Source: a virus
Length of the DNA: 31,853 nucleotides
Direction: 5' to 3' (one strand)
IMG/VR virus record: IMGVR_UViG_3300030389_002013
Span: 1 to 31,853 of that record
Shown: positions 1,943 through 23,590 of the stretch, piece after piece
How positions within the stretch are numbered: position 1 is the stretch's first letter
How the letters are laid out: each line of letters opens with the position of its first letter
Made by a program: the position numbers and the translations under genes
The notes under the pieces: model-generated
The model's input: only the letters and a program-made list of their open reading frames with translations
Told to the model about the DNA's origin: nothing
Databases searched by the model: none

Positions 1943-1968
1943 CAAAATATAAGTTAATAAATCGTTAT
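1943..1968 (+). promoter_or_regulatory. Putative phage-sigma promoter P1 (CAAAA-N14-TCGTTAT)
   Basis: CAAAA at 1943-1947 and TCGTTAT at 1962-1968, with 19 nt from box start to box start. The start codon of the 1982 gene is 13 nt after the motif. It is one of six intergenic copies of the same bipartite motif; see the sigma factor at 4973 and the other sites at 8485, 10790, 19555, 21344 and 23566. Confidence 0.6.
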
Positions 1969-1981
1969 ATTTATAAACATT

Positions 1982-2218
1982 ATGAGTTTTAATACAGATA
2001 CAATAGATAAAATAGTAGGATATAAAACTATTAAGAGTAGAGATAAAATAGATAGATTACTAGAGATTGAATCTAATTATATAGCTAATAATATAGGATC
2101 TAATATAACTAAAACTGAAAAAAACAATATTAGAAAAAATAGTAGATATATATATAAAGCTATATCAAAAATCAATCAAGAAATAGGTAATAAATTCTTA
2201 CAAGCTCAGGATAAGTAA
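1982..2218 (+). CDS. Small protein of unknown function upstream of NinG
   Basis: A 78-residue, helical, charged protein with no membrane segment or cysteine. The middle has the pattern KIDRLLEIESNYIANNIGS followed by a basic Lys/Arg/Asn region. I do not recognise a named family. It overlaps the NinG-like gene by one base (TAATG), so the two are almost certainly co-translated and may share a role in DNA metabolism. A CAAAA/TCGTTAT motif lies immediately upstream. Confidence 0.7.
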   Translation: MSFNTDTIDKIVGYKTIKSRDKIDRLLEIESNYIANNIGSNITKTEKNNIRKNSRYIYKAISKINQEIGNKFLQAQDK

Positions 2219-2619
2219 TGCCTAAAAAACCTAGTAGAAAATATCTAGTAAAAAAATTAGATACCTTATTCTCTTTATATATTAGGTTAAAATCAGCAGA
2301 TAAATATGGTAATGTTAAATGTTATACTTGTAACACTAAAAGACATTATAAGGATTATATGCAATGTGGCCATTTTATATCAAGAAGGCATTATATAACT
2401 AGGTGGAAAGAAACAAATGCAAAACCTCAATGCTACTCTTGTAATGTAGGTAATCAAGGTATGCAATATCAATTTGCTCTAAATCTTAACAAAGAATATG
2501 GCTACGATATAGCCCAAGAATTGTTACAGGAAAGTAAACAATCTGTAAAGTTATCAAATGATGATCTAGTTTCGTTAATAAATAGATATAAAGAATTTAT
2601 TGACTTAATGGATAAATAA
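2218..2619 (+). CDS. NinG-like recombination protein (lambda NinG/Rap family)
   Basis: A 133-residue protein with the NinG zinc-binding layout: CYTC at 35-38, then QCGHFISRRHYITRWKE at 49-65, NAKPQCYSCN with Cys72 and Cys75, then a helical C-terminus. In lambda, NinG (Rap) is linked to recombination and Holliday-type junction cleavage. The family shares the HNH-like Cys/His core, and the conserved CGH plus N-x2-PQC residues are all present. Length is close to the core of the family (lambda NinG is longer at the N-terminus). A terminator follows 45 nt downstream, closing a two-gene operon. Confidence 0.82.
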   Translation: MPKKPSRKYLVKKLDTLFSLYIRLKSADKYGNVKCYTCNTKRHYKDYMQCGHFISRRHYITRWKETNAKPQCYSCNVGNQGMQYQFALNLNKEYGYDIAQELLQESKQSVKLSNDDLVSLINRYKEFIDLMDK

Positions 2620-2663
2620 TTAATTTTGATTAGTTCTGTTCATTTTGTCTTTGGTTTAAAAGA

Positions 2664-2692
2664 GGGTTAATTAATTTTAATCCTTTTTTTTT
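2664..2692 (+). terminator. Rho-independent terminator after the NinG gene
   Basis: GGGTTAA at 2664-2670 pairs with TTAATCC at 2677-2683 (one G-T pair) across a 6-nt loop, followed by nine T's. It separates the NinG pair from the early operon promoter just downstream. Confidence 0.78.
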
Positions 2693-2703
2693 GCCCTTGC
2701 CTA

Positions 2704-2733
2704 TTGTTTTTCACAAAAAATTTAATATCTTTA
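2704..2733 (+). promoter_or_regulatory. Sigma-A type promoter of the early operon
   Basis: TTG at 2704-2706, exactly 19 nt, then TATCTTTA at 2726-2733 (one mismatch to TAnnTTTG). The start codon of the first early gene is 27 nt downstream. It lies right after a terminator and ahead of the replication and sigma-factor genes, as expected for a host-recognised early promoter. Confidence 0.6.
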
Positions 2734-2760
2734 TGTAAATTATAATTAAACTTTAGATAT

Positions 2761-3066
2761 ATGAACAATCCATTTTTAAATCCTGAAGATATAATATCAG
2801 GTACAGAATCAGGTTATATTATTGAAAAACCTTATCCTGTTCTAAATTTATATGATAGGTTAAAGCCTCAATATAAAATAGCTCTTGATAAGCAAGTAGA
2901 AAACTGGACATCAGCATCTGCTATTAAAGACAAACTTAAAAACACATTAAGTTATATGGATCTCACTATTCTAGATATAAAGGTTTTATATTCTATGATA
3001 GATGTATGGACTACAGATGTAACTGTAGATGATCTTATATATGGTAATAATATTTTTGAAAAATGA
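2761..3066 (+). CDS. Early protein of unknown function
   Basis: A 101-residue acidic protein that opens the early operon. No motif is recognisable to me: there is no signal peptide, membrane segment or cysteine cluster. The predicted content is mostly helix, with tryptophans at 50 and 83. First genes of phage early operons are often host-takeover factors, but there is no direct evidence for that here. It overlaps the next gene by 4 nt (ATGA). Confidence 0.68.
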   Translation: MNNPFLNPEDIISGTESGYIIEKPYPVLNLYDRLKPQYKIALDKQVENWTSASAIKDKLKNTLSYMDLTILDIKVLYSMIDVWTTDVTVDDLIYGNNIFEK

Positions 3067-3251
3067 AACATAAAGATTGGCCATACATAAAAGGAGAGAA
3101 ACAAATCATAGCTTTAACTAAGGCTTATGAATACAATAAAAGAGAAGCAGATAAATATAAATCCCTCTGTAAACAGAAGGATGAGAAAATAGAAGAATTA
3201 ACAATTAAACTTGAAAAACTAAGATATGAATCAGAAATTAGAAACTATTAA
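3063..3251 (+). CDS. Short coiled-coil protein
   Basis: Sixty-two residues. From about residue 18 to the end it is a continuous heptad-like helix rich in Lys and Glu (KREADKYKSLCKQKDEKIEE...). The N-terminus has KDWPYIKGEKQI. It overlaps both the upstream gene (4 nt) and the annealing-protein gene (26 nt). It may be an oligomerising partner of a recombination protein, which is inference from position only. Confidence 0.62.
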   Translation: MKHKDWPYIKGEKQIIALTKAYEYNKREADKYKSLCKQKDEKIEELTIKLEKLRYESEIRNY

Positions 3252-3741: not shown

Positions 3742-3745
3742 AATT

Positions 3746-4081: not shown

Positions 4082-4108
4082 GAAAAAGTATAGTTTTTTC
4101 ATTAGTAG

Positions 4109-4144: not shown

Positions 4145-4154
4145 ATATTTATTT

Positions 4155-4972: not shown

Positions 4973-5452
4973 ATGAGTAAAAAATATATGGAATTGTTAT
5001 TCCAAAAAAATAATGACTGGATTGAGATCTGTAAATCCTTTGGTTTAGATGAAGAAACTGCTAAGGATCTTACTCAGGAGATGTATATAAAAATCCAACT
5101 AAAAATAGAGAATGACAAATTAGATATATCTTATAATGATGAGATAAACTATTACTATATATTTAAAACTCTTAGAAGTATGTTTATAGATCTGTATAGG
5201 AAAAAAAAGAAAGTAACAATAGTAAGAAACCTAACTGAATATAAGAAATCTGATACTTATGTTAATTATGATGATAAGTATAAACAGATACAGGATCAGC
5301 TAGATAAAATGTATTGGTATAATAAAAAGGTATTTGAGATAGTAAACTCAGGTACATCAATAGCAGAATTATCTAGGAAATCAGGAATACCTTATTACTC
5401 TCTTTACAATACATATAAAAAAGTGGTAGATAAATTAAAACAAATAATATGA
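4973..5452 (+). CDS. ECF-like RNA polymerase sigma factor
   Basis: A 159-residue protein with the layout of a minimal sigma-70 family (ECF) factor. A region 2-like part spans about 7-80: acidic helix with DEETAKDLTQEMYIKIQ (compare the DL.QE.F.K. signature), then an aromatic/basic helix YYYIFKTLRSMFIDLYRKKKK that fits regions 2.3/2.4. After a linker, a region 4-like helix-turn-helix covers 105-157, with SIAELSRKSGIPYYSLYNTY as the recognition unit. There is no region 1 or 3. It would redirect host RNA polymerase to phage promoters. The likely target is the CAAA/TCGTTAT motif found before virion operons; this link is inference. The downstream gene overlaps by 4 nt. Confidence 0.75.
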   Translation: MSKKYMELLFQKNNDWIEICKSFGLDEETAKDLTQEMYIKIQLKIENDKLDISYNDEINYYYIFKTLRSMFIDLYRKKKKVTIVRNLTEYKKSDTYVNYDDKYKQIQDQLDKMYWYNKKVFEIVNSGTSIAELSRKSGIPYYSLYNTYKKVVDKLKQII

Positions 5453-8165: not shown

Positions 8166-8496
8166 AAGAAAACAGATACCCATATATACAGGATTGATAA
8201 AATACTTTCCAAAAGCACTTGCTGAAGTTGCTAGAGTATCTTATACAGGTAATCAGCAGCATCATCCTGATAAACCATTGCATTGGGATAGGGCAAAGAG
8301 TACAGATGAGCTAGATGCTCTTACTAGGCATTTGTTTGAGGCAGGAGAAATAGATACTGATGGTATGAGGCACTCTGCTAAAGTAGCTTGGAGAGCATTG
8401 GCCAATCTAGAAAAAGAACTTGAAAACTCAAGGGATGATAAGTGGTATAAAGAACAGTATAACAGAAATAGAGATCCTGAAGATCAAATCAAGTAA
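8146..8496 (+). CDS. dATP/dGTP pyrophosphohydrolase-like protein (DUF5664)
   Basis: A 116-residue protein with the pattern YFPKALAEVARVSYTGN, HWDRAKSTDELDALTRHL, GEIDTDGMRHSAKVAWRAL. The spaced acidic and His residues (E62-D64, H73, H87) match the MazG-like fold family DUF5664 that hydrolyses dATP/dGTP. In some phages related enzymes (MazZ) serve base-Z genomes, but no PurZ-type synthetase is seen here, so nucleotide pool control is the safer reading. It overlaps the methylase gene by 20 nt. The first half of a putative phage-sigma promoter lies in its last codons. Confidence 0.7.
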   Translation: MEKNKYKRKQIPIYTGLIKYFPKALAEVARVSYTGNQQHHPDKPLHWDRAKSTDELDALTRHLFEAGEIDTDGMRHSAKVAWRALANLEKELENSRDDKWYKEQYNRNRDPEDQIK

Positions 8497-8509
8497 TTTT
8501 TTTCGTTAT
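8485..8509 (+). promoter_or_regulatory. Putative phage-sigma promoter P2 before terminase
   Basis: CAAAT at 8485-8489 and TCGTTAT at 8503-8509, 18 nt from box start to box start. The terminase start codon is 29 nt after the motif, the longest leader among the six intergenic sites. Confidence 0.58.
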
Positions 8510-8538
8510 ATTTTTGATTAATCAAAGTTTTTCAAAAT

Positions 8539-8778
8539 ATGAAAGTAGAAAATAGAGGAGGTAAAAGAAAGGGAGCAGGTAGAAAACCTAAATCTGAAGA
8601 GTTAAATCTTATTGAGAAATTAACTCCATTAGAGCCATTGGCCTTTGAAGCATTAGAGGCAGGATTAAAAAAAGGAGATTTCAAATATGTTCAACTCTAT
8701 TATAATTATTATGCAGGTAGGCCTAAAGAAACTAAAGATATTCACATAAACGAAGATCTGCCTATATTCATAGATTAA
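8539..8778 (+). CDS. Terminase small subunit (TerS)
   Basis: A 79-residue protein with a basic start (NRGGKRKGAGRKPKSEE), the hallmark N-terminus of many phage small terminases, then LTPLEPLAFEALEAGLKKGD, an amphipathic helix region, and YYNYYAGRPKE before an acidic end. It should bind the packaging site and load the large subunit. It is shorter than typical TerS proteins (100-200 residues). It overlaps the large terminase by one base (TAATG), as TerS genes commonly do. No separate DNA-binding helix-turn-helix is obvious. Confidence 0.72.
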   Translation: MKVENRGGKRKGAGRKPKSEELNLIEKLTPLEPLAFEALEAGLKKGDFKYVQLYYNYYAGRPKETKDIHINEDLPIFID

Positions 8779-9947
8779 TGCAAATTCAAAAAACCTTAGC
8801 ACTCCAAAAACTAAGAAAGCTACAGAATAGAATAAAGATAATCAGAGGAGGATCTTCAGCAGGTAAGACAATAGCTATATTACTAATCCTTATAGACTAT
8901 GCAATAAGAAACAAAGGATCTGAGATAAGTGTGGTATCAGAGAGTGTACCTCATCTTCGTAGAGGAGCTTTAAAAGACTTTCTAAACATCCTGAAGGCCT
9001 TGAATAGGTATGATGAGAGAAAGTACAATAGAAGTACCTTAAAATACGAATTTCATAATGGTAGTTATTTAGAGTTCTTTAGTACAGATCAGCCTGATAA
9101 ACTTAGAGGAGCTAGAAGGTCGGATTTATTTTTAAATGAGTGCAATAATGTAACCTTTGATTCCTATCAGCAATTAGCAATAAGAACCTCCAATAATATA
9201 TGGCTTGATTATAATCCTACTAATTTATTTTGGGTAGATAAAGAACTGATAGGCCAAGATGATACAGACTTCCTTACACTTACTTATAAGGACAATGATA
9301 GCCTCCCTGAATCAATAGTAAGAGAAATAGAGAAAGCTAAAGACAAAGCTAAGACATCTACATACTGGGCAAACTGGTGGAAGGTATATGGACTTGGAGA
9401 GATAGGTAGCTTAGAAGGAGCTTGTATTCCTGACTGGAAATCAATAGATAAAATACCTGATGATGCTAGGTTACTTTGTGGAGGCCTTGATTTTGGCTAT
9501 AGTGTAGATCCCTCAGTTATCATAAACCTCTATAAGTGGAATGATGCTTATATCTTTGATGAGATCCTATATCGTAAAGGAATGTTAAATAGAGATATAA
9601 GTTATTTCATAAGACAAAATAATATAAGCTATAATATATATGCAGATTCTGCTGAACCTAAATCTATACAAGAACTTAGAAACTATGGCCATAAAGTATT
9701 CCCTGTAACTAAGGGTAGAGATTCTGTAGTCTATGGTATAAACCTAATAAACCAAAATGAGATATATATCACTTCAAGATCTAAGAATCTAATAAGGGAG
9801 CTGCAAGGATATGTATGGGATAAAGACAAAGAAGGGAATAATCTACAGAAACCTACAGGCCTTCATCCTGACTGTATTGATGCTTGTAGATATGCTTTAA
9901 TGATGGAATTACAAAATCCAAACAGAGGTAGATACATAATTAGATAA
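8778..9947 (+). CDS. Terminase large subunit (TerL)
   Basis: A 389-residue packaging motor. ATPase part: Walker A GGSSAGKT at 24-31 and Walker B with its catalytic glutamate at LFLNE 117-121. Nuclease part (RNase H fold): GGLDFGYSVDP with Asp238, YADSAEPK with Asp290, and HPDCIDACRYALM with Asp365/Asp368. This matches the PBSX-like Terminase_3 family. It cuts concatemeric DNA and pumps it into the prohead. Length is usual for the family. The portal gene it must dock to is about 14 kb away, an unusual separation. Confidence 0.95.
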   Translation: MQIQKTLALQKLRKLQNRIKIIRGGSSAGKTIAILLILIDYAIRNKGSEISVVSESVPHLRRGALKDFLNILKALNRYDERKYNRSTLKYEFHNGSYLEFFSTDQPDKLRGARRSDLFLNECNNVTFDSYQQLAIRTSNNIWLDYNPTNLFWVDKELIGQDDTDFLTLTYKDNDSLPESIVREIEKAKDKAKTSTYWANWWKVYGLGEIGSLEGACIPDWKSIDKIPDDARLLCGGLDFGYSVDPSVIINLYKWNDAYIFDEILYRKGMLNRDISYFIRQNNISYNIYADSAEPKSIQELRNYGHKVFPVTKGRDSVVYGINLINQNEIYITSRSKNLIRELQGYVWDKDKEGNNLQKPTGLHPDCIDACRYALMMELQNPNRGRYIIR

Positions 9948-9963: not shown

Positions 9964-9994
9964 TTTGTGGATAAGTTATAAATACTTATATTTG
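9964..9994 (+). promoter_or_regulatory. Sigma-A type promoter
   Basis: TTTG at 9964-9967, a 19-nt spacer and a perfect TATATTTG at 9987-9994. This is the best match to the Bacteroidota consensus in the window. The next start codon is 25 nt after the -7 box. Confidence 0.7.
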
Positions 9995-10019: not shown

Positions 10020-10187
10020 ATGAAAAAATGTATTTTATGTAACGAAGAGTTTACAGGGTGGGGGCATAATCCTGCTCCTCTTGCAGAACCTCATTTTAAA
10101 TGTTGCTCAGTATGTAACGATATTAGAGTTATCCCTTACAGGATATATCAATTATCTCAATCTAAAAAAGTGAATAATGTCAATTAA
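10020..10187 (+). CDS. Small zinc-ribbon-like protein
   Basis: Fifty-five residues with Cys4-x2-Cys7 and Cys28-Cys29-x2-Cys32, spaced like a four-cysteine zinc site, plus GWGHNPAPLAE between them and CNDIRVIPYRI after. This small family ('C..C...G.G.N..P......CC..CN...V.P.R') is widespread in marine phages and bacteria, always unnamed as far as I recall. It has its own sigma-A-like promoter and overlaps the next gene by 11 nt. A regulatory or nucleic acid-binding role is plausible but unproven. Confidence 0.72.
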   Translation: MKKCILCNEEFTGWGHNPAPLAEPHFKCCSVCNDIRVIPYRIYQLSQSKKVNNVN

Positions 10188-10362
10188 AGCAACTGTAAAC
10201 TTGATAGAAGTAAATGATAGAATAAAACCTATCACTAGGGAGTTTGATAATGAAAGGCATATATATCATTTCAAAAATCACGCAATAAATTATTGGCCTA
10301 ATATTAAAGGCCTTGATAGTGTTGTAGATGATAAAGGTAATGATATAACAAAGGATATATAA
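10177..10362 (+). CDS. Small protein of unknown function
   Basis: Sixty-one residues, mixed charge, with HIYHFKNHAINYWPNIKGLDS in the middle (28-48). There are no cysteines, signal or membrane segments. It overlaps the zinc-ribbon gene by 11 nt and is likely translated with it. No named family is recognised. Confidence 0.62.
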   Translation: MSIKATVNLIEVNDRIKPITREFDNERHIYHFKNHAINYWPNIKGLDSVVDDKGNDITKDI

Positions 10363-10381
10363 TTATTTATTATATTTAAGT

Positions 10382-10687
10382 ATGATCTTAGACAAAATAA
10401 CAAACTTAAAAGATATGTACTATTATTCAAATCAAGAATTATGTAGAGGTCTTATAAGTAAGTGGAGAAAAATGAAACCTGATAACAAGGAGCTTAAACT
10501 TCTTGATGATAACCTTTTAGAAATCACTCTTTATGTGGTAGGGTTACATAGAGATAATGAGTTTCATAAAATAGCAATGAGTGATTATAGAGAAAGACTA
10601 AACAAAAAAGATTTAGAATTACAGGAGCTGAAAGAGAAATATGATAAGTTGGAAAAAGATTATAAAAAAGACTTTGAAACCACTTAG
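10382..10687 (+). CDS. Coiled-coil protein of unknown function
   Basis: A 101-residue protein. The first half is a compact helical region with LCRGLISKWRKMKPDNK, the second (about 62-100) a regular Lys/Glu/Leu coiled coil. The start is 19 nt after the previous stop, with an imperfect -7-like box (TATATTTA) in between. It ends the small-gene block between terminase and the tail module; a strong hairpin terminator follows. Confidence 0.65.
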   Translation: MILDKITNLKDMYYYSNQELCRGLISKWRKMKPDNKELKLLDDNLLEITLYVVGLHRDNEFHKIAMSDYRERLNKKDLELQELKEKYDKLEKDYKKDFETT

Positions 10688-10789: not shown

Positions 10790-10814
10790 TAAAATGTTAA
10801 ATTAAATTCGTTAT
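10790..10814 (+). promoter_or_regulatory. Putative phage-sigma promoter P3 before the tail module
   Basis: TAAAAT at 10790-10795 (variant of CAAAAT) and TCGTTAT at 10808-10814, 18 nt box to box. The start codon follows after only 6 nt, so the mRNA would be nearly leaderless. It lies immediately after the terminator T-run. Confidence 0.55.
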
Positions 10815-10820: not shown

Positions 10821-11471
10821 ATGAAAATCAAGGTAAACATTCCTCAGAGCTTAGATGATGTTACTCTCAGGGATTATAAACACTTCTTGAAGATACAAGA
10901 AAACAATGAAGATGGAAGATTTGTAAAGGCCAAGATGCTTGAGATCTTCTGTAAGATAGGATTGAAAGAAGTATATAGAATGAAGTATAAGGATTCAGAG
11001 GAGGTGCTATCTATACTAGAGAAAACCTTTAATGATAAACCTTCTTTGGTTAGAAAATTTAAACTGGGTAAAACTCAATATGGATTCCATCCTCAACTAG
11101 ATGATCTTACTTTTGGAGAGTATATAGATCTAGATACATATATTGGAGATTGGGATAATATTGAAAAAGCAATGAATGTACTGTACAGGCCTATAATTAC
11201 AAGTATAGGAGAGAAGTATGCTATAGATGAATACAATACAGAGAATGATAAGTATTTACTTGATATGCCTATGAGTGCAGTAACTTCATCCATTTTTTTT
11301 TTGATGAAACTAGGAGCAGATTTATCAAATCATATCCTGAAATCTTTGGAGAAGGACAACGAGGAGATCTATCAGCAGTTTCTAACTTTGGAAAAAAATG
11401 GGGATGGTATCAGTCAATTTGGGCTTTATGTGGATCAGACATTACAAAAATTGAACATATCACTAAACTAA
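10821..11471 (+). CDS. Tail assembly chaperone, short form
   Basis: A 216-residue protein, the zero-frame product of what looks like a G/GT-type tail chaperone locus. It contains LTFGEYIDLDTYIGDW (around 96-111), EKAMNVLYRPI, FFLMKLGADLSNHIL and the end segment NGDGISQFG. These patterns are familiar from Bacteroidota phage proteins located before tail genes. A second open frame overlaps its 3' end in the -1 frame, and the tape measure lies downstream, both as expected for the chaperone that coats the tape measure during tail assembly. The family call rests on recall and on the frameshift layout. It starts 6 nt after putative promoter P3. Confidence 0.68.
   Translation: MKIKVNIPQSLDDVTLRDYKHFLKIQENNEDGRFVKAKMLEIFCKIGLKEVYRMKYKDSEEVLSILEKTFNDKPSLVRKFKLGKTQYGFHPQLDDLTFGEYIDLDTYIGDWDNIEKAMNVLYRPIITSIGEKYAIDEYNTENDKYLLDMPMSAVTSSIFFLMKLGADLSNHILKSLEKDNEEIYQQFLTLEKNGDGISQFGLYVDQTLQKLNISLN
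11393..11399 (+). promoter_or_regulatory. Candidate -1 frameshift slippery site A AAA AAT
   Basis: In the zero frame the sequence reads as the heptamer A-AAA-AAT, the X-XXY-YYZ pattern of -1 sites, inside a run of seven A's at 11392-11398. An alternative site is the ten-T run at 11293-11302 (T-TTT-TTG). Both lie where the zero and -1 frames are open together. Confidence 0.5.
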
Positions 11472-11557
11472 ATGCTCATAAATGTTTTACTTGGTTAGCT
11501 TATATGAAAGACAAAAATGAGATGGAAGCTCAAGAACTTAAAAAGAAACTTAAATGA
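11393..11557 (+). CDS. Tail assembly chaperone, -1 frame extension (long form)
   Basis: Overlapping the end of the 10821 gene in the -1 frame is an open frame with no start codon of its own that runs to a TGA at 11555-11557. It reads FGKKWGWYQSIWALCG, then TKIEHITKLNAHKCFTWLAYM, and ends in a Lys/Glu helix. The 'KWGWY..I..L..GD...I..IT.L....C...L.Y.K' pattern is what I recall for the C-terminal extension of flavophage tail chaperones. Slippage at the A-run would give a product of about 245 residues instead of 216. The next gene starts on the same ATGA. The frame would be missed by start-codon-based gene calling. Confidence 0.66.
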   Translation, partial: KKWGWYQSIWALCGSDITKIEHITKLNAHKCFTWLAYMKDKNEMEAQELKKKLK

Positions 11558-12024: not shown

Positions 12025-12025
12025 G

Positions 12026-12669: not shown

Positions 12670-12671
12670 AG

Positions 12672-13853: not shown

Positions 13854-14380
13854 GGTTAAAAGAGTTAGAGAAGGCAGTAAAGAAATATGCCAAATATGTA
13901 GTACAACAATCTAGAACCAATCTTAGCAAGAAAGGTAAAAGATTAACAGGTAAGCTATATGATTCTTTAGAACCTGAATATGAATATGATAATAATAATA
14001 ATTTCTTTGTTAGGTTCAAGATGGCAGATTATGGAGCTTTTCAAGATCAAGGTGTCAAAGGTACTCAATCAAGTTATTCTGAAAGTTCAAACAGTCCATT
14101 TAAGTTTGGTACAGGTACAGGTAAAAGAGGAGGCCTTACAAAAGGTATAGAAAATTGGATAAAACTAAAAAAATTTCAATTTAGAGATAGTAGAGGAAGA
14201 TTTATGAGTTATAAGTCTATGCAATATATTATTGTAAATAGTATATGGAGGAAAGGGCTTAGAGCTACTTTGTTTTTCTCTAATCCATTTGAGAAAGGTA
14301 TTCAAAGATTTGGAGATGACTTCTTAAATGCTTACCTACTTGATGTAGAAAGAAATGTAATACTAGGTGTTAAAAAATAA
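13850..14380 (+). CDS. Head-tail/tail completion protein (HK97 gp10-like)
   Basis: A 176-residue basic protein. The N-terminal helix (RLKELEKAVKKYAKYVVQQSR) is followed by GKLYDSLEPEYEY and the motif MADYGAFQDQGVKG at 58-71, then a Gly/Ser/Thr-rich loop and a helical C-terminus. 'YG.F.D.GVKG' is typical of gp10-like neck proteins in Bacteroidota phages. It probably joins or completes the head-tail connection. The overlap with the barrel gene (ATGA) shows tight coupling with the upstream envelope genes. Confidence 0.62.
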   Translation: MRLKELEKAVKKYAKYVVQQSRTNLSKKGKRLTGKLYDSLEPEYEYDNNNNFFVRFKMADYGAFQDQGVKGTQSSYSESSNSPFKFGTGTGKRGGLTKGIENWIKLKKFQFRDSRGRFMSYKSMQYIIVNSIWRKGLRATLFFSNPFEKGIQRFGDDFLNAYLLDVERNVILGVKK

Positions 14381-14383
14381 GAT

Positions 14384-15370
14384 ATGGCTACAATACTTTT
14401 AAGATCTCCAAGATATGAATCATTAACAACTCCAAGTGGAGCAGTATCAGCTAAACTACAATTAAGTATTGATGGTGTGGTTAGATATACTATTATAAAG
14501 TCTTGTACAGCAGGTAGCCCAGTATTGTTTGAAATATCTGAACTATCTAGAGATTATCTTACTCCTACTATTACTCTAGATCCTGCTAGTTATCCTCAAA
14601 ATGAAATAGGAATATCAAGAGTTATTAGTTTCCATAGTGCAGCAAATGCAGGAGGAAGTGTGGTAAGTGGAGGTAATACAGTAGCCCATAGAGGATTAGA
14701 TGGATATGGTATTTTCTCTGAAGGTGCTAATCCAACTGCATCAGCAAACTCTTTTGCTTTTTCTCCTGATCATCAAAACAGTAACAATTATAAATTATAT
14801 GTACCTGTAGGTAAAGGTGGTGCTTTCCAGTTTTTTGATAGCAATGGAGAAATACAAACTCAAGAATTTGAAGCAGGAGATGATTCAGATACTTTAGGAT
14901 TTGGAGGTACAGTAACCATAAATAGAATAGACTGTACAAAATATGGATCAGGAAGAAAGATAGTATTTATAAATAAGTTTGGTGCATTACAAGAGATATG
15001 GTTCTTTTTAAAAGCAGTACAATCTACAAATGTAAAATCAGATAACTATCAAAGAAATATTATTAGTACATCAGGATCTTATTCTACATTATCACACTCT
15101 GTAAAAACATTTGATAAACAAGGTAAACAAACTCATAGTTTATCATCAGGCTTTTATCCTGAGTTTACTAATACTTGGTTTGAGCAATTATTATTATCTG
15201 AGTATGTATGGATGATAAGGCCTAAATATACAAATCCTTCTACAGATGAGGTAGTACCTGTTACTGTAAAAACAAGTAGCCTCACTCAAAAGACATCCTT
15301 AAATGACAAACTAATACAATATACCATACAATTTGAAGAGGCCTCTGATTATATTAATAATGTTAGATAA
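14384..15370 (+). CDS. Conserved virion protein, likely tail-tip/baseplate
   Basis: A 328-residue beta-rich protein with Ser/Thr/Gly-rich loops. A conserved core IDCTKYGSGRKIVFINKFGALQEIWFF lies around 182-208. The C-terminal quarter (WFEQLLLSEYVWMIRP) ends with an oligomer-like strand region. I recall this family as unnamed structural proteins in flavophages, next to the protein encoded downstream. Its position between neck and tape-measure genes suggests the distal tail. It overlaps the next gene by one base (TAATG). Confidence 0.6.
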   Translation: MATILLRSPRYESLTTPSGAVSAKLQLSIDGVVRYTIIKSCTAGSPVLFEISELSRDYLTPTITLDPASYPQNEIGISRVISFHSAANAGGSVVSGGNTVAHRGLDGYGIFSEGANPTASANSFAFSPDHQNSNNYKLYVPVGKGGAFQFFDSNGEIQTQEFEAGDDSDTLGFGGTVTINRIDCTKYGSGRKIVFINKFGALQEIWFFLKAVQSTNVKSDNYQRNIISTSGSYSTLSHSVKTFDKQGKQTHSLSSGFYPEFTNTWFEQLLLSEYVWMIRPKYTNPSTDEVVPVTVKTSSLTQKTSLNDKLIQYTIQFEEASDYINNVR

Positions 15371-17415
15371 TGCAGAAGTTACAATTATTCATAAGTAATA
15401 CTAGGGTAGATTTATTTAAAGATGAGAGTGTATCTATAAATCAAACAATACAAAATGTAAGAGATATAGCTAAGATCTTCACAGAGTTTACACAAACATT
15501 TACAATACCTGCATCTAAAACAAATAATAAATTATTCAAGCATTATCATAATTACGATATAGTAAATACTTTTGATGCTAGGAGGAAAGAGGCAGCAGAA
15601 ATACAATTAAACAATGTACCTTTCAAAAAAGGATTTATAAGGCTAGAGGGAGTACAATTAAAAAAAAATAAACCATATTCTTATAAAATTACATTCTTTG
15701 GGGAAACAGTAAACCTAAAAGACTTACTTGGAGATGATGAATTATCAGCTTTAGATCTAAGTTCTTTTGATATTGATTATAGTTTTGGTAATATCAAAAA
15801 CAAAATGCAAACAAGTACAGGTGGTTTTATTACTCCTCTTATTACTCATACTAGACAATTATATTTTGATAGTGGTGGTAATGTAGGAAATGGTAATCTT
15901 CATTATGCTAGTAGCTCTAGTTCTAATGGTGTGTTTTGGAGTGATCTAAAATATGCTATAAGGTTACACGAAATAGTACAGGCCATACAAACAAAATATA
16001 GTATTACATTTAGTAATGATTTTTTTGATAGCTCAAATGCAACTTGGTATAATCTTTATTTATGGTTACATAGAAAAAAAGGAGATGTAGAACCTGCTCA
16101 ACAAGTATCAATGCAGTTTAAAACTGTAACTGGATTTTCTTTAAATAGTTCTCCTCCTGCTACTACAAGTGTATCAGGTAATGGAGTAAATGTATCATCT
16201 ACATATACTACTTATCCAAATACTATTTTAGGGTTTACTTTTACATTTATACCACAATCTACTGATGTATATACTATAAGAATTTTTAGGAATGGTTCAC
16301 AAATATTTCAAGCAGAAGATGTAACTGGCACTCAATTAGTTTCTGAAAGTGATTTTACCCTAGCATCAGGTACATATACAGTTGCTATTGGTTCTACAAG
16401 TACAGTAACATTTAATGCAGGTAATGTAAGATTTGCAGTAAATGGTAACTTAGGGGGTACTGATGATGGTAGTGTTACTGCTTGGAATGATGAGTGGAGA
16501 TCTTCAAGTCAAACAGTTACTGGTACTACATTTGAATTTAGAATAAACGAACAAATACCTAAAATGAAAGTTATAGACTTTCTTACAGGCCTTTTTAGAA
16601 TGTTTAACTTGACTGCTTTTATAAATGATGCAGGTACTATAGTTGTACAAAAATTAGATGATTTCTATGCTGCATCTTCCATAACTCATAATATAGATGA
16701 ATATGTAGATATTAAAAGTAGTAGTGTAGATGTGGCTTTACCATTCAAAGAGATAGATTTTGCTTATAAAGGATTAGGTACATTTTTATCAAAACAATTT
16801 GAGCAATTAGAAAATAAAGGATGGGGTACTATAGAATATTCAGCAGATTCAACTTTTGATGCTCCATCTGATACTTATAAAGTAGAAATACCTTTTGAAC
16901 ATTTACAATATCAAAGATTAGTAAATGCAACTGGAGGTGCAAATACATCCATACAATTTGGATGGTTTGTGGATGATAACAAAGAATCCTTCTATGGATT
17001 ACCACTTATATTTTATGCAATAAAACAATCTTCAAGTACAACTGCAATCAGTCTTAAAAATACAGAAACAAGTAATCAATCTATTTCAAGTTATTGGATT
17101 CCAAGTAATTCAAGAGCAATATCAAGTTCTACCTCTACTGATAATATACATTTTGATTTAGAAGTTAATGAATATACAGGAGGATCTACTTTTACAGGTA
17201 CACTTTTTGAAAATTGTTATAAGACTTATATACAAGATGTATTCAATGCAGGAAGAAGATTAACAAAAGTAAAAGCCAAGCTACCACTAAAAATTATATT
17301 TGATTTAAAATTGAATGATAAAATTTCGTTACATAATAGAAACTATAGAATAAATAGTATCAAAACAAATTTAACAACAGGAGATAGTAGTTTAGAATTA
17401 TTGAATATAGTATGA
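15370..17415 (+). CDS. Large minor tail protein
   Basis: A 681-residue protein. The conserved start (RVDLFKDESVSINQTIQNV, FTEFTQTFTIPASKTNNKLF, FKKGFIRLEGVQLKKNKPY, ITFFGETVNLKDLLG) is familiar from Bacteroidota phage tail proteins. The middle (about 250-390) is Ser/Thr-rich and resembles an immunoglobulin-like insertion (TYTVAIGSTSTVTFNAGNV). The end (KAKLPLKIIFDLKLNDKISL) is beta-rich. It is probably a hub or tail-tip component that binds the host; the exact role is unproven. The next small gene overlaps its stop (ATGA). Confidence 0.66.
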   Translation: MQKLQLFISNTRVDLFKDESVSINQTIQNVRDIAKIFTEFTQTFTIPASKTNNKLFKHYHNYDIVNTFDARRKEAAEIQLNNVPFKKGFIRLEGVQLKKNKPYSYKITFFGETVNLKDLLGDDELSALDLSSFDIDYSFGNIKNKMQTSTGGFITPLITHTRQLYFDSGGNVGNGNLHYASSSSSNGVFWSDLKYAIRLHEIVQAIQTKYSITFSNDFFDSSNATWYNLYLWLHRKKGDVEPAQQVSMQFKTVTGFSLNSSPPATTSVSGNGVNVSSTYTTYPNTILGFTFTFIPQSTDVYTIRIFRNGSQIFQAEDVTGTQLVSESDFTLASGTYTVAIGSTSTVTFNAGNVRFAVNGNLGGTDDGSVTAWNDEWRSSSQTVTGTTFEFRINEQIPKMKVIDFLTGLFRMFNLTAFINDAGTIVVQKLDDFYAASSITHNIDEYVDIKSSSVDVALPFKEIDFAYKGLGTFLSKQFEQLENKGWGTIEYSADSTFDAPSDTYKVEIPFEHLQYQRLVNATGGANTSIQFGWFVDDNKESFYGLPLIFYAIKQSSSTTAISLKNTETSNQSISSYWIPSNSRAISSSTSTDNIHFDLEVNEYTGGSTFTGTLFENCYKTYIQDVFNAGRRLTKVKAKLPLKIIFDLKLNDKISLHNRNYRINSIKTNLTTGDSSLELLNIV

Positions 17416-17552
17416 TAAAAAACATAATAGATTTATTACAGGTTTGTGAAGGAGAAACTGAAAACATAAGAATAGCTCAGGGTAAATATGCTTTACCTAT
17501 GACTTTTAAAAAAGCATATAAACAACTTAAAAATGAATTAAGATGGCAGTAA
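17412..17552 (+). CDS. Small protein before the tape measure
   Basis: Forty-six residues: MIKNIIDLLQVCEGETENIR, then IAQGKYALPMTFKKAYKQL and NELRWQ. It overlaps the tail protein by 4 nt and the tape measure by 10 nt, which makes a real gene likely despite its size. It looks like a short helical protein; function unknown. Confidence 0.58.
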   Translation: MIKNIIDLLQVCEGETENIRIAQGKYALPMTFKKAYKQLKNELRWQ

Positions 17553-19552
17553 CTGCAAGAGAATATGAATTAAAGCTAAGTGTAGCTGATGCAGAAAAAA
17601 AAGTTGCTGAACTTAATGAGCAATTAGAAATCCAAGAACAGGTAATAAAAGATCTTGAGAAGGCCTCTTTTAAATATAACAAAAGATTAGAAGATACTGT
17701 TAAGATTCAAGATAGAGGTGCTTTAAAAAAAAGAATAAAACAAATAAAGGCAGAGATAGCTGATGAGAAGAAAGGTTTACAAGATCTTACAAAACAAAGA
17801 AAGAAAGCAAATGATCAGTTAAAAGATTCTCAAAAAAGTGCAAGAGATTATTCAGGGGTAGTAGGATTATTAGATCAGCAAACAGGTGGTTTAATTAGTA
17901 GAACTCAAGGATTTACTGGAGCTTTAGGTGCAGCTACAAAAGGCTCTAAATTACTTAGAATAGCTTTATTAGCAGTACCTTTAATTGCAATAGCTACTGC
18001 AATAGCAGGTGTAGCAAAAGCATTTACTTCATCAGAAGAAGGCCAAAATAAATTCAGAAGATTTTTTACTCAGATTCAAGCAGTTATAGGCAATGTATCT
18101 GATATACTAGCAGATTTTGGTAATGTAGTTCTTAATGTTTTTACTGGTAATTTTAAAGAAGCAGGTAAAGCCTTAGAAGAAGTTAGGCAGGGTATAGCAA
18201 ACTTTGGAGAAGAAACTAGAAAGGAGATAAAAATTGCAGGAGAACTAGCTGATAAAAGAGCAGAGGCAGATAAACTAGAAAGACAATTACTTATAGATAG
18301 AGCAGAAGCTACTAGAAAATTTAATGAATTAAGAGAGAAAGCAGCAGATAAAGAAAATGTATCTATTGAAGATAGAATAGAAGCATTAAAAGAAGCAGGT
18401 AGAATAGAGGCAGAAATAACTGATGCTGAAATAAAAGCTGCTGAGTTAAGGCTAGAAGCTAAGGTAGCAGAAAATGCTCTAGCTGATTCTACAAAAGAGG
18501 ATCTAGATGAAGAAGCAGCATTAAGAGCAAAACTTATAGAACTTGAAGCCTCAAGATTAAAGAAACAAAAAACACTTACTGCTGAGATTACTACTAACCT
18601 TAGAGAGGCAAAAGCAGAAAGGAAAGCAGAAGAGGCTGCTGAGAAAGCAGAACAAAAACAAAAAGATGCAGAAGAGTTAGCAGCAGCAAAGGCCTTAGCA
18701 GAATTAAAAAAACAAATAAGAGATGCTACTGCAATTTCTGAACAAGAAAGAAGAGATCTAGAATTAGTCAAAATAGATGAGCAGTTTCAAAAACTTATTA
18801 CTCAAGCTCAAGAACAAAACTTAGTAACTGATGAATTAGAGGCAGCAAGAAGAGAAGCAGTCAAAGCAAAACAAGATGAGTTTGATGCTGAGGATGAAGC
18901 AAGAAGAAAGGCCAATGCAGATAAGATAAAAGCAGAAAAAGAAAAAGAACTTGCAGAAGAAGAAAAAATAGAAGCACAAAAAAGAGCTACTAGAGAAAAA
19001 ACATTTGACAATGCAGTCTTGTTAGCAGGTGCTGAAAGTAAAGTAGGTAAAGCATTATTAGTAGCAAAACAAATATTATTAGCTAGGCAGTTAATATTAG
19101 ATGCTAAAGAACAAATATCTAATGCTAAAAAGGCAGTAACTAATGCTACTGTTAATGCAGCAGAATCAGGAGTTGAATTAGGTAAAGGTGCAGCTAAATC
19201 AGCAAGTGCAGCACCCCCTCCATTTAACATTCCTTTTATTTTAAGTTTTGCTGCAACTGCTTTTGGTATTGTAAGTGCAATAAAATCAGCAGTAGGTGCT
19301 ACTAAGAGTGCAGCAGCATCAGCAGGTGCAAGTGCAGGTGGTGCTATAAATGTAGAAGCTCCTAGTGTAGAAGCAGCAGCACCAACAATAGAATCTACTC
19401 CTCCTGATGTTACAGGAGTTGGTGGATCAGGTGTTAGTCAAATAGCTGAGGCTTTAGGCAATCAGCAACCAGTACAGGCCTTTGTAGTGAGTAATGATGT
19501 AACTACTGCTCAGGGCTTAGATAGGAATATAATAGATGGTGCATCATTATAA
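17543..19552 (+). CDS. Tape measure protein
   Basis: A 669-residue, largely helical protein with long coiled coils (about 14-100 and 205-500), a strongly hydrophobic segment at 138-160 (LLRIALLAVPLIAIATAIAG) and an Ala/Gly/Pro-rich C-terminus with a second hydrophobic region. This is the normal layout of a siphovirus tape measure, which fixes tail length and is ejected with the DNA. At about 0.15 nm per residue it would set a tail of roughly 100 nm. The Ala-rich coil also produces long spurious antisense frames. It follows the tail chaperone by 6 kb, not directly as in lambda-like phages. Confidence 0.85.
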   Translation: MAVTAREYELKLSVADAEKKVAELNEQLEIQEQVIKDLEKASFKYNKRLEDTVKIQDRGALKKRIKQIKAEIADEKKGLQDLTKQRKKANDQLKDSQKSARDYSGVVGLLDQQTGGLISRTQGFTGALGAATKGSKLLRIALLAVPLIAIATAIAGVAKAFTSSEEGQNKFRRFFTQIQAVIGNVSDILADFGNVVLNVFTGNFKEAGKALEEVRQGIANFGEETRKEIKIAGELADKRAEADKLERQLLIDRAEATRKFNELREKAADKENVSIEDRIEALKEAGRIEAEITDAEIKAAELRLEAKVAENALADSTKEDLDEEAALRAKLIELEASRLKKQKTLTAEITTNLREAKAERKAEEAAEKAEQKQKDAEELAAAKALAELKKQIRDATAISEQERRDLELVKIDEQFQKLITQAQEQNLVTDELEAARREAVKAKQDEFDAEDEARRKANADKIKAEKEKELAEEEKIEAQKRATREKTFDNAVLLAGAESKVGKALLVAKQILLARQLILDAKEQISNAKKAVTNATVNAAESGVELGKGAAKSASAAPPPFNIPFILSFAATAFGIVSAIKSAVGATKSAAASAGASAGGAINVEAPSVEAAAPTIESTPPDVTGVGGSGVSQIAEALGNQQPVQAFVVSNDVTTAQGLDRNIIDGASL

Positions 19553-19554: not shown

Positions 19555-19579
19555 CAAAATATAATTTTAAACTCGTTAT
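19555..19579 (+). promoter_or_regulatory. Putative phage-sigma promoter P4 before the head module
   Basis: CAAAAT at 19555-19560 and TCGTTAT at 19573-19579, exactly 18 nt box to box. The start codon follows after 6 nt. The motif fills the only gap between tape measure and protease genes. Confidence 0.6.
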
Positions 19580-19585: not shown

Positions 19586-21193
19586 ATGAAGATAGTAGAA
19601 TTAGTCTTAGATGAAGATCAAGAAGTAACAGGAGTTGAGGCAATCTCAATAGTAGAAAATCCTGCAATAGAAGAAGATTTTATAGCTCTTAAAGATCAAG
19701 AGATTAGATTAGCTGAAATAGACAAAGAGAAAAAAATATTGATGGGTGCTTTATTAGTACCTAACAAACCAATATACAGAAAAAATAAAGATGGAGAATA
19801 TTATATATATTTTTCAAAAGAAACAATAGAAAAAGCCTCTCAGCTATATTTAAAAAAAGGACATCAAAGTAATTCTACCTTAGAACATAATCACGAAATC
19901 AATGGCCTTACTTTAGTAGAAAGTTGGATAGTAGAAGATGAGAAACTAGACAAATCAAGAAAGTATGGATTTGATGTACCTGTAGGTACTTGGATGGGAT
20001 CTGTAAAAGTAGATAATGATGATGTATGGAATGAATATGTAAAAACTGGTAAAGTAAAAGGTTTCAGTATTGAAGGATATTTTGCAGATAAAATGGATGT
20101 ACCAAAAAGCAATAAAGATGAACTTGCAAAAATAGAAGAAGAAGAAGCAGAGTATATGCTTAATATTATAAAAGGCATAATTAAAGATGATGCAAGATTT
20201 AAAAATGGTAAGAATTTAGTTTTAGAAAGTTTTTCAGATTATCCTGATGCAGTAAAGAATAATGCAAAGAGAGGAATAGATCTTAATAAAAAAGTAAATA
20301 ATAAATGTGCTACAGATGTCGGTAAAATAAGAGCATCTCAATTAGCTCAAGGTAAGCCTATAAGTGAACAAACAATAAAGAGGATGTATTCATTTTTGTC
20401 AAGAGCAGAAGAATACTATAATGCAGATGATAAGGAGGCCTGTGGCACTATATCTTATTTACTATGGGGAGGCCTAGCTGCTAAGAGATGGAGTGAGGCA
20501 AAACTTAAAAAACTAGGTAAACTAGAATTATATAGCCAAGTGGTAAATGATGAGTTTGCTATTATTGATGATAGACTAGCTTATTCTACAGAAGAGAAAG
20601 CCAAAGAGATGGCTAGAAATATTGGATGTGAAGGAATACACGAACACGAACTAGAAGATAAAACTTGGTATATGCCTTGCGAGTTTCATATTAAGGATGA
20701 TATGAGTAAGCATAAAAAATGTCCTATGGGATATAAAAAAAAGGATGGTAAGTGTGTAAGAGAAAGAGATAATTATGCAGAAGTAGGAGAAAGAGGAGGT
20801 ATTAGAAAAAGTCCTAAAGCTCCTAAATCAGATACTCCTAATCCAAATCCAAAAGGCAAAGGAACTGCAAAAGGAGATGCCTCAACAAGTAGAGGAGCAA
20901 AAGTATCAAAAGCTGATGAAGCTACTTTACAAAAAAAGGCAGATGACTTTAATAAAAGATATAAAGATAAATTAGGATATGGTGTTACAGTAGGCCAACT
21001 TAAATCAGTATTTCAAAGAGGTTTAGGTGCTTTCAATGTTTCACATTCTCCTAAAATTAAATCAGCATCAGCTTGGGCATTTGCAAGAGTTAATGCTTAT
21101 ATGTATTTGGTAAAAAATGGTAGGCCTCAGAATCCTAAATATAAATCGGATAATGATTTACTACCTAAAAAACATCCTAAAAGTGGTAAATAA
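19586..21193 (+). CDS. Prohead protease (XkdF-like) in a multidomain protein
   Basis: A 535-residue protein. Residues 1-172 match the XkdF-like protease family: KKILMGALLVPNKPIYR, STLEHNHEINGLTLVESW with His101, GTWMGSV, and KGFSIEGYF with Ser161; His101 and Ser161 are the likely catalytic pair. Further parts follow: a conserved region at about 205-310 (KNAKRGIDL, SFLSRAEEYY), a CEGIHEHE/WYMPCEFH module at about 335-370, a Cys-containing KKCPMGYKKKDGKCV loop, and a basic C-terminal domain (about 405-535) with SASAWAFARVNAYMYLV. The protease probably matures the capsid; the extra modules may be co-packaged or cleaved off. Much longer than a plain XkdF protease. Confidence 0.75.
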   Translation: MKIVELVLDEDQEVTGVEAISIVENPAIEEDFIALKDQEIRLAEIDKEKKILMGALLVPNKPIYRKNKDGEYYIYFSKETIEKASQLYLKKGHQSNSTLEHNHEINGLTLVESWIVEDEKLDKSRKYGFDVPVGTWMGSVKVDNDDVWNEYVKTGKVKGFSIEGYFADKMDVPKSNKDELAKIEEEEAEYMLNIIKGIIKDDARFKNGKNLVLESFSDYPDAVKNNAKRGIDLNKKVNNKCATDVGKIRASQLAQGKPISEQTIKRMYSFLSRAEEYYNADDKEACGTISYLLWGGLAAKRWSEAKLKKLGKLELYSQVVNDEFAIIDDRLAYSTEEKAKEMARNIGCEGIHEHELEDKTWYMPCEFHIKDDMSKHKKCPMGYKKKDGKCVRERDNYAEVGERGGIRKSPKAPKSDTPNPNPKGKGTAKGDASTSRGAKVSKADEATLQKKADDFNKRYKDKLGYGVTVGQLKSVFQRGLGAFNVSHSPKIKSASAWAFARVNAYMYLVKNGRPQNPKYKSDNDLLPKKHPKSGK

Positions 21194-21343: not shown

Positions 21344-21368
21344 CAAAATTAAATTTAATAATCGTTAA
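21344..21368 (+). promoter_or_regulatory. Putative phage-sigma promoter P5 before scaffold/capsid
   Basis: CAAAATT at 21344-21350 and TCGTTAA at 21362-21368 (last base A instead of T), 18 nt box to box. The start codon is 10 nt downstream. Confidence 0.58.
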
Positions 21369-21378
21369 TATAGTAATT

Positions 21379-21984
21379 ATGAAAAGTAGTGATATGCTTA
21401 ATAAAATTAAAACTATCCTAGACATTCAAGTAGATCTTGAAGATAGGAAACTAGAGAATGGTACAGTAATAACTGCTGAAACATTTTCTAATGGAAAAGA
21501 AGTATTCATCAAAACAGATGATGAAAAAGTAAAAATGCCTATTGGAGAATATGAATTAGAATCAGGAGAGGTTCTAGTTGTAAAAGAAGAAGGCCTTATT
21601 GAAGAGTTAAAAGAAGCCAAAGAAGAAGGGCTTGAAGAACACGAAGAAAAAGAAGATAAGGAAGAAATGAAATATGTTACAAGAGAAGAGTTCAGGAAAG
21701 AAATGGATGAACTTAAAAAACATATTGAAGATATGATGGATCACAAAGAAGAAGAGAAGAAAGAAGAAGAAGAGGAAAAAGTTGATGCAGAAGAAAAACT
21801 ATCTAAGGATGAGGAAGTCAAAGCAGAAGAGATAATTAATGAAGAGTTATCAAAACCTGCTACTGAGCCAATCAAGCATAGCCCTGAAACAGGAAGTGCT
21901 AAAAGAGCAAGTGGTTTCCAATTCTCAGAAAGCAGAGCAAAAACTGTAAAAGATAGAATTTTAGAAAAATTAAATAACCTATAA
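21379..21984 (+). CDS. Capsid scaffold-like protein
   Basis: A 201-residue, very acidic protein. The N-terminal part (24-72) has GTVITAETFSNGKEVFIKTDDEKVKMPIGEYELESGEVLVV, a small beta domain; then a long Glu/Lys-rich coiled coil (about 75-160) and a basic end (AKRASGFQFSESRAKTVKDRILEKL). Position immediately before the major capsid gene, acidity and coil content all fit an assembly scaffold removed by the protease. I recall this domain pair in front of flavophage capsid genes. Confidence 0.7.
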   Translation: MKSSDMLNKIKTILDIQVDLEDRKLENGTVITAETFSNGKEVFIKTDDEKVKMPIGEYELESGEVLVVKEEGLIEELKEAKEEGLEEHEEKEDKEEMKYVTREEFRKEMDELKKHIEDMMDHKEEEKKEEEEEKVDAEEKLSKDEEVKAEEIINEELSKPATEPIKHSPETGSAKRASGFQFSESRAKTVKDRILEKLNNL

Positions 21985-21996
21985 ATATAAATAAAA

Positions 21997-22911
21997 ATGG
22001 CTTTAAGTATAACAAGTAATTATGCAGGTCAATGGGCAGGTAAATATATAGCTGCTGCATTGTTATCAGGCGATACAATCGCAAAAGGTGGTATAGAAGT
22101 ATTGCCTAATATTAAATATAAAGAAAACATCAGCAAGATGGCAGTATCAGGTATTATTGCTAATGCTAGTTGTGATTTCACATCAGCAGGTAATATAGCT
22201 CTTACTGAAAGAGTTTTACAACCTGAAGAGTTCCAAGTAAACAATGAGTTTTGTTTAACTCCATTTGTAAGTTCTTGGGAAGCAGCAGAGCTAGGATTTT
22301 CAGCTTATGAAAAAATGCCTAAGAAATTTAGTGATTTTCTAATTGCAGAAGTAGCTGCTCAAGTAGCACAAAAAACTGAGCAATCTATTTGGAATGGTGC
22401 TAATGGTAATGCAGGAGAGTTTGATGGTTTTGTAACATTATTCAAAGCAGATTCAGATGTTTCTGATATTTCAGGTACTACTGTAACTTCTGCTAATGTA
22501 ATTGCAGAAATTGGTAAAGTAGTAGATGCTTGTCCTTCTGCTTTATATGGTAAAGAAGATTTATACTTGTATGTATCTAAAAATGTAGCAAAGGCATATA
22601 TCAGAGCTTTAGCTGCTCAAGGTGGTGGATATGAGAATAGAGTTAATATGTGGTATTCAATGGATCAGCCACTAACTTTTGATGGTATCAGTATTTTCCT
22701 AGCACAGGGATTAAATGATAATCAAATGGTACTAGCTCAAAAATCTAACCTATACTTTGGTACAGGACTATTATCAGATCATAACTTAGTAAAAACTCTA
22801 GATATGGCTGATTTAGATGGATCACAAAATGTAAGAGTAATTATGAGATTTACTTCAGGAATCCAGTATGGATTTGGTAGTGAAGTAGTTTTATACGATC
22901 CTACAGTATAA
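21997..22911 (+). CDS. Major capsid protein
   Basis: A 304-residue protein of the size and style of HK97-fold capsids. It has a short N-arm, CDFTSAGNIALTERVLQPEEF, an acidic helix EAAELGFSAYEKMPKKFSDF (spine-helix candidate), SIWNGANGNAGEFDGFVTL, and a beta-rich end with LYFGTGLLSDHNLVKTLDM. It lies between the scaffold and a terminator, preceded by an A-rich leader without Shine-Dalgarno, as usual for highly expressed Bacteroidota genes. Expected to be the most abundant virion protein. Confidence 0.85.
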   Translation: MALSITSNYAGQWAGKYIAAALLSGDTIAKGGIEVLPNIKYKENISKMAVSGIIANASCDFTSAGNIALTERVLQPEEFQVNNEFCLTPFVSSWEAAELGFSAYEKMPKKFSDFLIAEVAAQVAQKTEQSIWNGANGNAGEFDGFVTLFKADSDVSDISGTTVTSANVIAEIGKVVDACPSALYGKEDLYLYVSKNVAKAYIRALAAQGGGYENRVNMWYSMDQPLTFDGISIFLAQGLNDNQMVLAQKSNLYFGTGLLSDHNLVKTLDMADLDGSQNVRVIMRFTSGIQYGFGSEVVLYDPTV

Positions 22912-22922
22912 TAAATTTTAAC

Positions 22923-22957
22923 AAAGGGTAGGTATTAACCTGCCTATCCTTTTTGTT
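22923..22957 (+). terminator. Terminator after the major capsid gene
   Basis: AAAGGGTAGG at 22923-22932 pairs with CCTATCCTTT at 22943-22952 (one G-T pair) across a 10-nt loop, followed by T-rich sequence. It probably limits read-through so that capsid mRNA is made in excess. Confidence 0.75.
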
Positions 22958-22981
22958 TAACATTTTTAAAAAAATAATAAT

Positions 22982-23503
22982 ATGGCTTGTACATTAACAA
23001 CAGGAAGAAAATTACCTTGTAAAACAGGATTTGGTGGAGTAAAAAAAGTTTACTTTGCTGACTTTGGTACACTAGGTACTGTAACTGTAGATGCAGATGG
23101 TACTATATCTGCTTTTTCAGGAAGCCCTGCTTTTTTTGAGTTTGATGTAAAAGGTAACTCTTCTTTAGAATCTACAGTAAATAGTTCTAGAGAAAATGGT
23201 ACTACATTCTTTGCACAAACCATAAATCTTACATTGCCATTCTTAGATAATGCTACTCAGCAAGAGCTACAACTAATTATAGTTTCAAGGCCTCACGTTG
23301 TAGTAGAAGATTACTTAGGAAATCAATTCCTTTGTGGTTTAGAGAATGGATGTGAAGTAACAGGAGGTACAGTAGTAACTGGAGCAGCAGCAGGAGATCT
23401 ATATGGATTTACACTAACTCTTGAAGGTCAAGAGGAAAAAGCACCTGCTTTTGTAGATGCAGGAGTTATAACTGCTAATGCAACTCAGATTACTCCTAAC
23501 TAA
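22982..23503 (+). CDS. Probable major tail tube protein
   Basis: A 173-residue beta-rich protein: GFGGVKKVYFADFGTLGTV near the start, FFAQTINLTLPFLDNATQQELQ in the middle, SRPHVVVEDYLGNQFLCGLENG and GFTLTLEGQEEKAPAF. The 'GFGGVK.VYFADFG' opening and the ' LTLEGQE' strand are familiar from abundant flavophage structural proteins located after the capsid gene. Size and fold style suit a tail tube subunit, but a capsid decoration protein is the main alternative. It has a terminator on both sides. Confidence 0.6.
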   Translation: MACTLTTGRKLPCKTGFGGVKKVYFADFGTLGTVTVDADGTISAFSGSPAFFEFDVKGNSSLESTVNSSRENGTTFFAQTINLTLPFLDNATQQELQLIIVSRPHVVVEDYLGNQFLCGLENGCEVTGGTVVTGAAAGDLYGFTLTLEGQEEKAPAFVDAGVITANATQITPN

Positions 23504-23532
23504 TAATATATCTAATTTTAGTTTAATTTAAG

Positions 23533-23560
23533 AAAGCACTCTTATCAGGGTGCTTTTTTA
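23533..23560 (+). terminator. Terminator before the portal operon
   Basis: AAAGCACTC at 23533-23541 pairs with GGGTGCTTT at 23548-23556 (one T-G pair) over a 6-nt loop, followed by a T-run. The next putative phage promoter starts only 6 nt later. Confidence 0.78.
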
Positions 23561-23565
23561 TTTTA

Positions 23566-23590
23566 CAAATTAAATTAATTAATTCGTTAT
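23566..23590 (+). promoter_or_regulatory. Putative phage-sigma promoter P6 before the portal operon
   Basis: CAAAT at 23566-23570 and TCGTTAT at 23584-23590, 18 nt box to box. The start codon follows after 7 nt. The terminator just upstream means a new start is needed here, which supports promoter function. Confidence 0.62.

Follow-up and report, generated by a model that had tools for sequence, protein, structure and literature searches.

The window analyzed here is the entire viral record IMGVR_UViG_3300030389_002013, 31,853 nucleotides (nt) long. Its subject is a two-box motif, CAAA or TAAA followed by TCGTTA, that lies in front of several operons, together with an open reading frame (ORF) for a protein resembling sigma factors of the extracytoplasmic function (ECF) type. 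An earlier note on this DNA had placed six such sites, with their spacings, between positions 1943 and 23590, and by reading the sequence all six were found again. The CAAA(A/T) boxes begin at 1943, 8485, 19555, 21344, and 23566, and the single TAAAA box at 10790; the corresponding TCGTTA boxes begin at 1962, 8503, 10808, 19573, 21362, and 23584. The sites and the genes concerned, where C is the first base of the CG in the second box, are:

1943–1967, + strand: P1, putative late promoter, CAAA-N15-TCGTTA, before the NinG pair (1982–2619)
4973–5452, + strand: ECF-like sigma factor of 159 amino acids, the proposed recognition factor (Pfam Sigma70_r2, AlphaFold, and PDB fold matches)
8485–8508, + strand: P2, putative late promoter, CAAA-N14-TCGTTA, before the terminase genes (8539–9947); C 35 nt from the ATG
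10790–10813, + strand: P3, putative late promoter, TAAA-N14-TCGTTA, before the tail operon (10821–19552); C 12 nt from the ATG
19555–19578, + strand: P4, putative late promoter, before the head protease (19586–21193); C 12 nt from the ATG
21344–21367, + strand: P5, putative late promoter, before the scaffold-like (21379–21984) and capsid-like (21997–22911) genes
23566–23589, + strand: P6, putative late promoter, before the portal operon (23598–26435)

Seven copies of CAAA-N13-15-TCGTTA are present in the window, exclusively on the + strand, against 0.08 expected from dinucleotide shuffles, and TCGTTA by itself occurs 15 times against 2.1 expected. The excess over shuffled controls, proposed as a check in the earlier note, was also observed at gene starts: the motif precedes 6 of the 15 operon-like starts, while the shuffled mean was 0.05 and the maximum 1 (200 shuffles). 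A further match, at 2555, has a shorter spacing, lies within coding sequence, and is probably due to chance. The distances from C to ATG at the six sites are 12, 12, 13, 16, 19, and 35 nt, so that the terminase site does not directly precede its start codon, as the earlier note had described for all six.

The rarity of CG, used to argue against chance, was confirmed (observed/expected 0.12), and with the contig-end repeat excluded, the motif accounts for 6 of the 8 intergenic CGs. This argument is nevertheless unnecessary, as the motif is kept in relatives without CG depletion (L089–L092 and L095, observed/expected 1.1–1.2); an artefact of CG rarity was rejected on the same grounds. The depletion in the window is about eight-fold, and the ratio spans 0.08 to more than 1.2 among the relatives L001–L160; CG depletion therefore varies inside one phage family.

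Because the motif had been picked from the window, it was tested on relatives, which were retrieved with two query proteins, the sigma-like ORF and the capsid-like protein. A simple ORF caller supplied their start codons, their genes were matched to those of the window by blastp, and upstream sequences that nearly duplicated the window or one another were removed. The motif was found at 65 of 100 nonredundant starts of the same six genes, whereas all other genes had it at 2 of 560 starts. The scan of related phages proposed in the earlier note thus shows strong enrichment at these genes and almost none at others. By gene, it was present in 17 of 18 upstream sequences for the tail gene, 12 of 13 for the portal adaptor, 8 of 12 for the protease, 13 of 20 for the small terminase, 10 of 18 for the scaffold, and 5 of 19 for the NinG partner. 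NinG is not a virion gene, and its site either arose recently or has been lost from most relatives. Reverse-strand counts were near zero, the motif was absent from all 58 starts of the control, Flavobacterium phage FpV9, and in unbiased 6-mer counts upstream of the relatives' genes CGTTAT came out at or near the top.

From 58 nonredundant sites, chosen by CGTTA and therefore constant in those letters by construction, the refined consensus is TA[C/T]AAA[A/T]T-N13-CGTTATA. The start of the CAAA or TAAA box lies 19 nt from the C at 47 of these sites and 20 nt at 8. The C lies 12 nt from the ATG at tail (12/12) and protease (8/8) genes, 12–14 nt at the portal adaptor, 12–18 nt at the scaffold, and 33–41 nt at the terminase. 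The core of the box first described as TCGTTA(T) is CGTTATA; the leading T varies, and TCGTTA was rejected as the core. TAAAA is restricted to the 10790 site only within the six window sites, being the usual −35 element of tail and terminase promoters in the relatives. When the window was scanned with the matrix, the six sites and an internal site at 26059 made up the top seven.

The sigma-like ORF lies within the gene block before the terminase operon. Residues 18–80 of its product match Pfam Sigma70_r2 with an E-value of 0.0046 and 17.2 bits, the gathering cut-off being 24. It has 224 relatives in IMG/VR, and among the 48 family members aligned, 15 match Sigma70_r2 (E ≤ 0.01), the best with an E-value of 1e-4. 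In the AlphaFold model (predicted local distance difference test score, 82), two helical domains, with helices in residues 2–76 and 99–156, flank a low-confidence linker (85–96), a predicted layout that agrees with the ECF hallmark of a short protein with just domains 2 and 4 joined by a linker. The top matches of a PDB fold search were ECF sigmas in transcription complexes or bound to anti-sigma factors (best E-value 5.6e-4, probability 1.0), and a search of viral models returned annotated phage ECF sigmas and a P12024S protein among its matches. Together these results suggest a diverged sigma-region-2 protein, the likely recognition factor, which the earlier note had not named. No homolog was confirmed in GTDB genomes with two short peptide patterns, and tblastn of the window sigma against INPHARED gave no match. 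No phage RNA polymerase was found among the window ORFs scanned, all large ones included, as would be required for promoters of a phage-encoded single-subunit enzyme.

A more diverged member of the sigma family led, in INPHARED, to the isolated Nonlabens phages P12024L and P12024S (Inhavirus); MH319752, a chance-level match in the same search, was dropped. Their homologs, gp35 of P12024L and gp33 of P12024S, are annotated as containing Sigma-70 region 2 and adjoin VRR-NUC and terminase genes. The family profile finds the P12024 homolog with an E-value of 4.5e-8, and the P12024L protein scores 25.2 bits with Pfam Sigma70_r2, over the cut-off; the sigma identity of P12024 to the window clade is 16–25%. 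Each genome has six forward CAAA-N-CGTTA copies, all 11–12 nt before an ATG and including those at the head of the portal and terminase gene blocks; at the start of gp01, CAAC replaces CAAA. The same arrangement was seen in uncultured relatives of P12024. These phages are therefore like the window phage in having a distant sigma homolog and the same motif at the same ATG distance at late genes, but their spacing is about one base shorter and CGTTAATA replaces CGTTATA. In P12024-type phages, the CAAATATA of the late promoter also overlaps a host-type element, TATATTTG, on the opposite strand (L166, 2980–3031 and 5365–5412; L209, 13443–13490).

Records with more diverged sigmas have the same promoter architecture with an altered −10: TATTATA in the L148/L216 clade, AGTTATA or AGTTTA in a freshwater clade, and GTTTATATA/TTGATATA in L242–L245, while L247 retains CGTTATA. 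Wherever a sigma-positive record has a true tail gene, the promoter geometry was seen, either in its CG form or in one specific to the lineage. Low-scoring matches to the tail gene in P12024-type records are probably false, and the −10 class of those records was taken from their other late starts. Among 44 phages, Asp at window position 73 accompanies CGTTA in 30 of 30, and Asn or Arg accompanies another −10 in 14 of 14; Arg76 follows, with one exception. The tree used for this comparison was made without the sigma columns in question. The co-variation is a striking match, not a significant test.

As the earlier note had stated, the motif lacks the host element TAnnTTTG, which occurs within 70 nt of 4 of 100 late starts, compared with 17 of 53 early or other starts. 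The Bacteroidota host promoter, with TAnnTTTG at −7, was accordingly discarded as the late signal, as were TTG-N19-TAnnTTTG promoters at the late sites. Across the window TAnnTTTG is barely over chance, and scans with the sigma-70 consensus gave no excess over shuffles. The contrast in TAnnTTTG between late and early or other starts would fit early genes served by host promoters and late genes served by the phage sigma. One exact TTG-N19-TATATTTG match lies at 9965–9994, before a short gene cluster (10020–10687) between the terminase and tail operons. Judging from the phage relatives, our guess is that the host belongs to the Flavobacteriia.

The motif in front of the structural genes of this marine phage is almost certainly the start signal of late transcription, and its reader is probably a small sigma factor encoded by the phage itself. 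The interpretation as a nonhost, ECF-type late promoter before virion operons is favored by the scan of relatives and by the scarcity of TAnnTTTG at late starts, and we have high confidence in its specific form, a late promoter read by the host core RNA polymerase with the ECF-like sigma encoded at 4973–5452. The sigma gene, in its block before the terminase operon, would presumably be transcribed earlier, the timing being judged from gene function. Its product would read CGTTATA, the −10, through domain 2 and TA[C/T]AAA[A/T]T, the −35, through domain 4, with the two elements at a fixed spacing of 19–20 nt. Once made, the sigma would turn on the terminase, tail, protease, scaffold/capsid, and portal operons, as well as NinG in this lineage. 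At many sites only 12–13 nt separate the −10 C from the ATG, and transcription there is therefore predicted, by analogy with known sigma-70-family promoters, to start at or within 1–2 nt of the start codon, at about the A of the ATG, and the late mRNAs would therefore be leaderless or nearly so.

Several observations weigh against this interpretation. The window protein falls under the Sigma70_r2 gathering score, a sequence search with it found no solved structure, and the Foldseek TM-scores are low (about 0.4) with high root-mean-square deviations, leaving local fold and probability to support the match. The tree shows no more than about three changes each for the sigma residue and the −10 class, and because only one independent lineage pair lies on well-supported branches, the formal paired test is not significant. 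For the freshwater, B, and B2 clades, the −10 elements come from visual inspection of a small number of genomes. We lean, slightly, toward the broader proposal that small marine and freshwater phages of a widespread family, probably infecting Bacteroidota, transcribe their late genes with their own ECF sigma. In this family the −10 specificity would have been rewritten several times (CG, AG, TT/TG, TA) through changes around Asp73/Arg76 of region 2.4; all promoters within one genome would have shifted together, and their placement would make the late mRNAs leaderless.

Three further elements lie close to these promoters or resemble them:

8514–8525, + strand: palindrome TTGATTAATCAA, between P2 and the terminase ATG
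23536–23553, + strand: terminator-like hairpin GCACTC-TTATCA-GGGTGC with a T-run after it, just 5' of P6, read in the sequence
26040–26063, + strand: candidate internal late promoter, inside ORF 25923–26435 and upstream of the tail-fibre gene (26517–31727)

The internal site is the seventh full match, and its position weight matrix score ranks among those of the six. Three relatives keep CGTTATATGA there by using another codon, the rare GCG, which makes up about 2% of Ala codons; this conservation suggests a promoter for the tail-fibre gene. The palindrome, with a single copy in the window, is found at 22 of 33 terminase starts in the relatives and is possibly an operator or a leader element or hairpin. 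The hairpin at 23536–23553 was not among the results of the terminator scan; relatives have similar hairpins before the same gene. The ends of the window (1–219 and 31635–31853) share a repeat, exact over 67 bases, then diverged, then similar, which spans the 3' end of the tail-fibre gene and the start of the next gene, as if the contig could be closed to a circle in which this stretch exists as two variants.

Other readers of the motif can be imagined. ECF sigma factors are numerous in Bacteroidota, and ECF promoters often have a CG in the −10; the promoter might be read by an alternative sigma of the host, ECF or other, while the phage protein, whose sigma activity is predicted, acts otherwise. 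We consider this unlikely, since differences in the −10 track those in the sigma of the phage itself, both the sigma and the motif extend to phages as far removed as P12024, and the geometry accompanies the sigma in records with a true tail gene. An even smaller probability is given to a phage repressor or activator that binds the motif and acts with the main host sigma. Repeated operators before operons are common in phages, and the terminase site has its conserved palindrome, but the motif is asymmetric, nearly always oriented with transcription, and at a fixed distance from the ATG, and host promoter elements are rare nearby.

Instead of being a promoter, the motif could work at the mRNA level, as an element of translation initiation or of the leader beside the start codon. 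It ends a few bases 5' of the ATG at most sites, and Shine-Dalgarno signals are seldom used in Bacteroidota. At the terminase, however, the same two boxes with the same spacing lie 33–41 nt upstream; the CAAA box at its fixed 19–20 nt has no obvious role in translation, operon-internal genes lack the motif, and terminator-like hairpins are found just 5' of several sites. All of this makes an element acting in the mRNA very improbable.

If the promoter is indeed read by the phage sigma, a large group of uncultured phages would have a simple early-to-late switch, for which an isolated phage-host pair, P12024L and Nonlabens, is available. The matched differences between sigma and promoter would amount to a natural experiment on the joint change in specificity of a sigma and several promoters, a start at the ATG would tie late expression to leaderless translation, and the motif would serve as a simple marker of late operons in unannotated phage contigs. 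In the literature searched, which covered few subscription journals, we found no account of this promoter, none of Bacteroidota phages whose late transcription is sigma-driven, and no description of late promoters in P12024S or P12024L.

Phage ECF sigmas with cognate late promoters are already known from phiEco32 and predicted in phage 7-11. The ECF sigma of phiEco32 (Kuravirus) binds the E. coli polymerase, and phage-specific promoters precede its genes (PMC7881722, PMC4331800), with the consensus tAATGTAtA (PMC4331800). The proposed system is similar in pairing an ECF-type phage sigma with phage-specific middle or late promoters. It differs in its genome of about 31 kb, its presumed Bacteroidota host, the ATG at the predicted start point, and a −35/−10 pair, TA[C/T]AAA[A/T]T-N13-CGTTATA, that departs from the phiEco32 consensus. 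The small diverged sigma gp55 of T4, which redirects the host polymerase to late genes (PMC2988020), is a further parallel, but it corresponds to sigma domain 2 and acts with gp33 and the gp45 clamp, while here one protein appears to have both DNA-reading domains and the promoter, unlike T4 late promoters, has a −35 box. Similar in approach is the work on phage 7-11, a phiEco32 relative with its own sigma gene, where repeats preceding the structural genes likewise allowed promoters to be predicted purely from sequence (Guzina and Djordjevic 2015, PMC4331800). The late class of phage 7-11 promoters also has a TATA element after the core, although that core is TGATGT-TATA without a CAAA box; what is new relative to phage 7-11 is the co-variation of sigma and promoter across clades.

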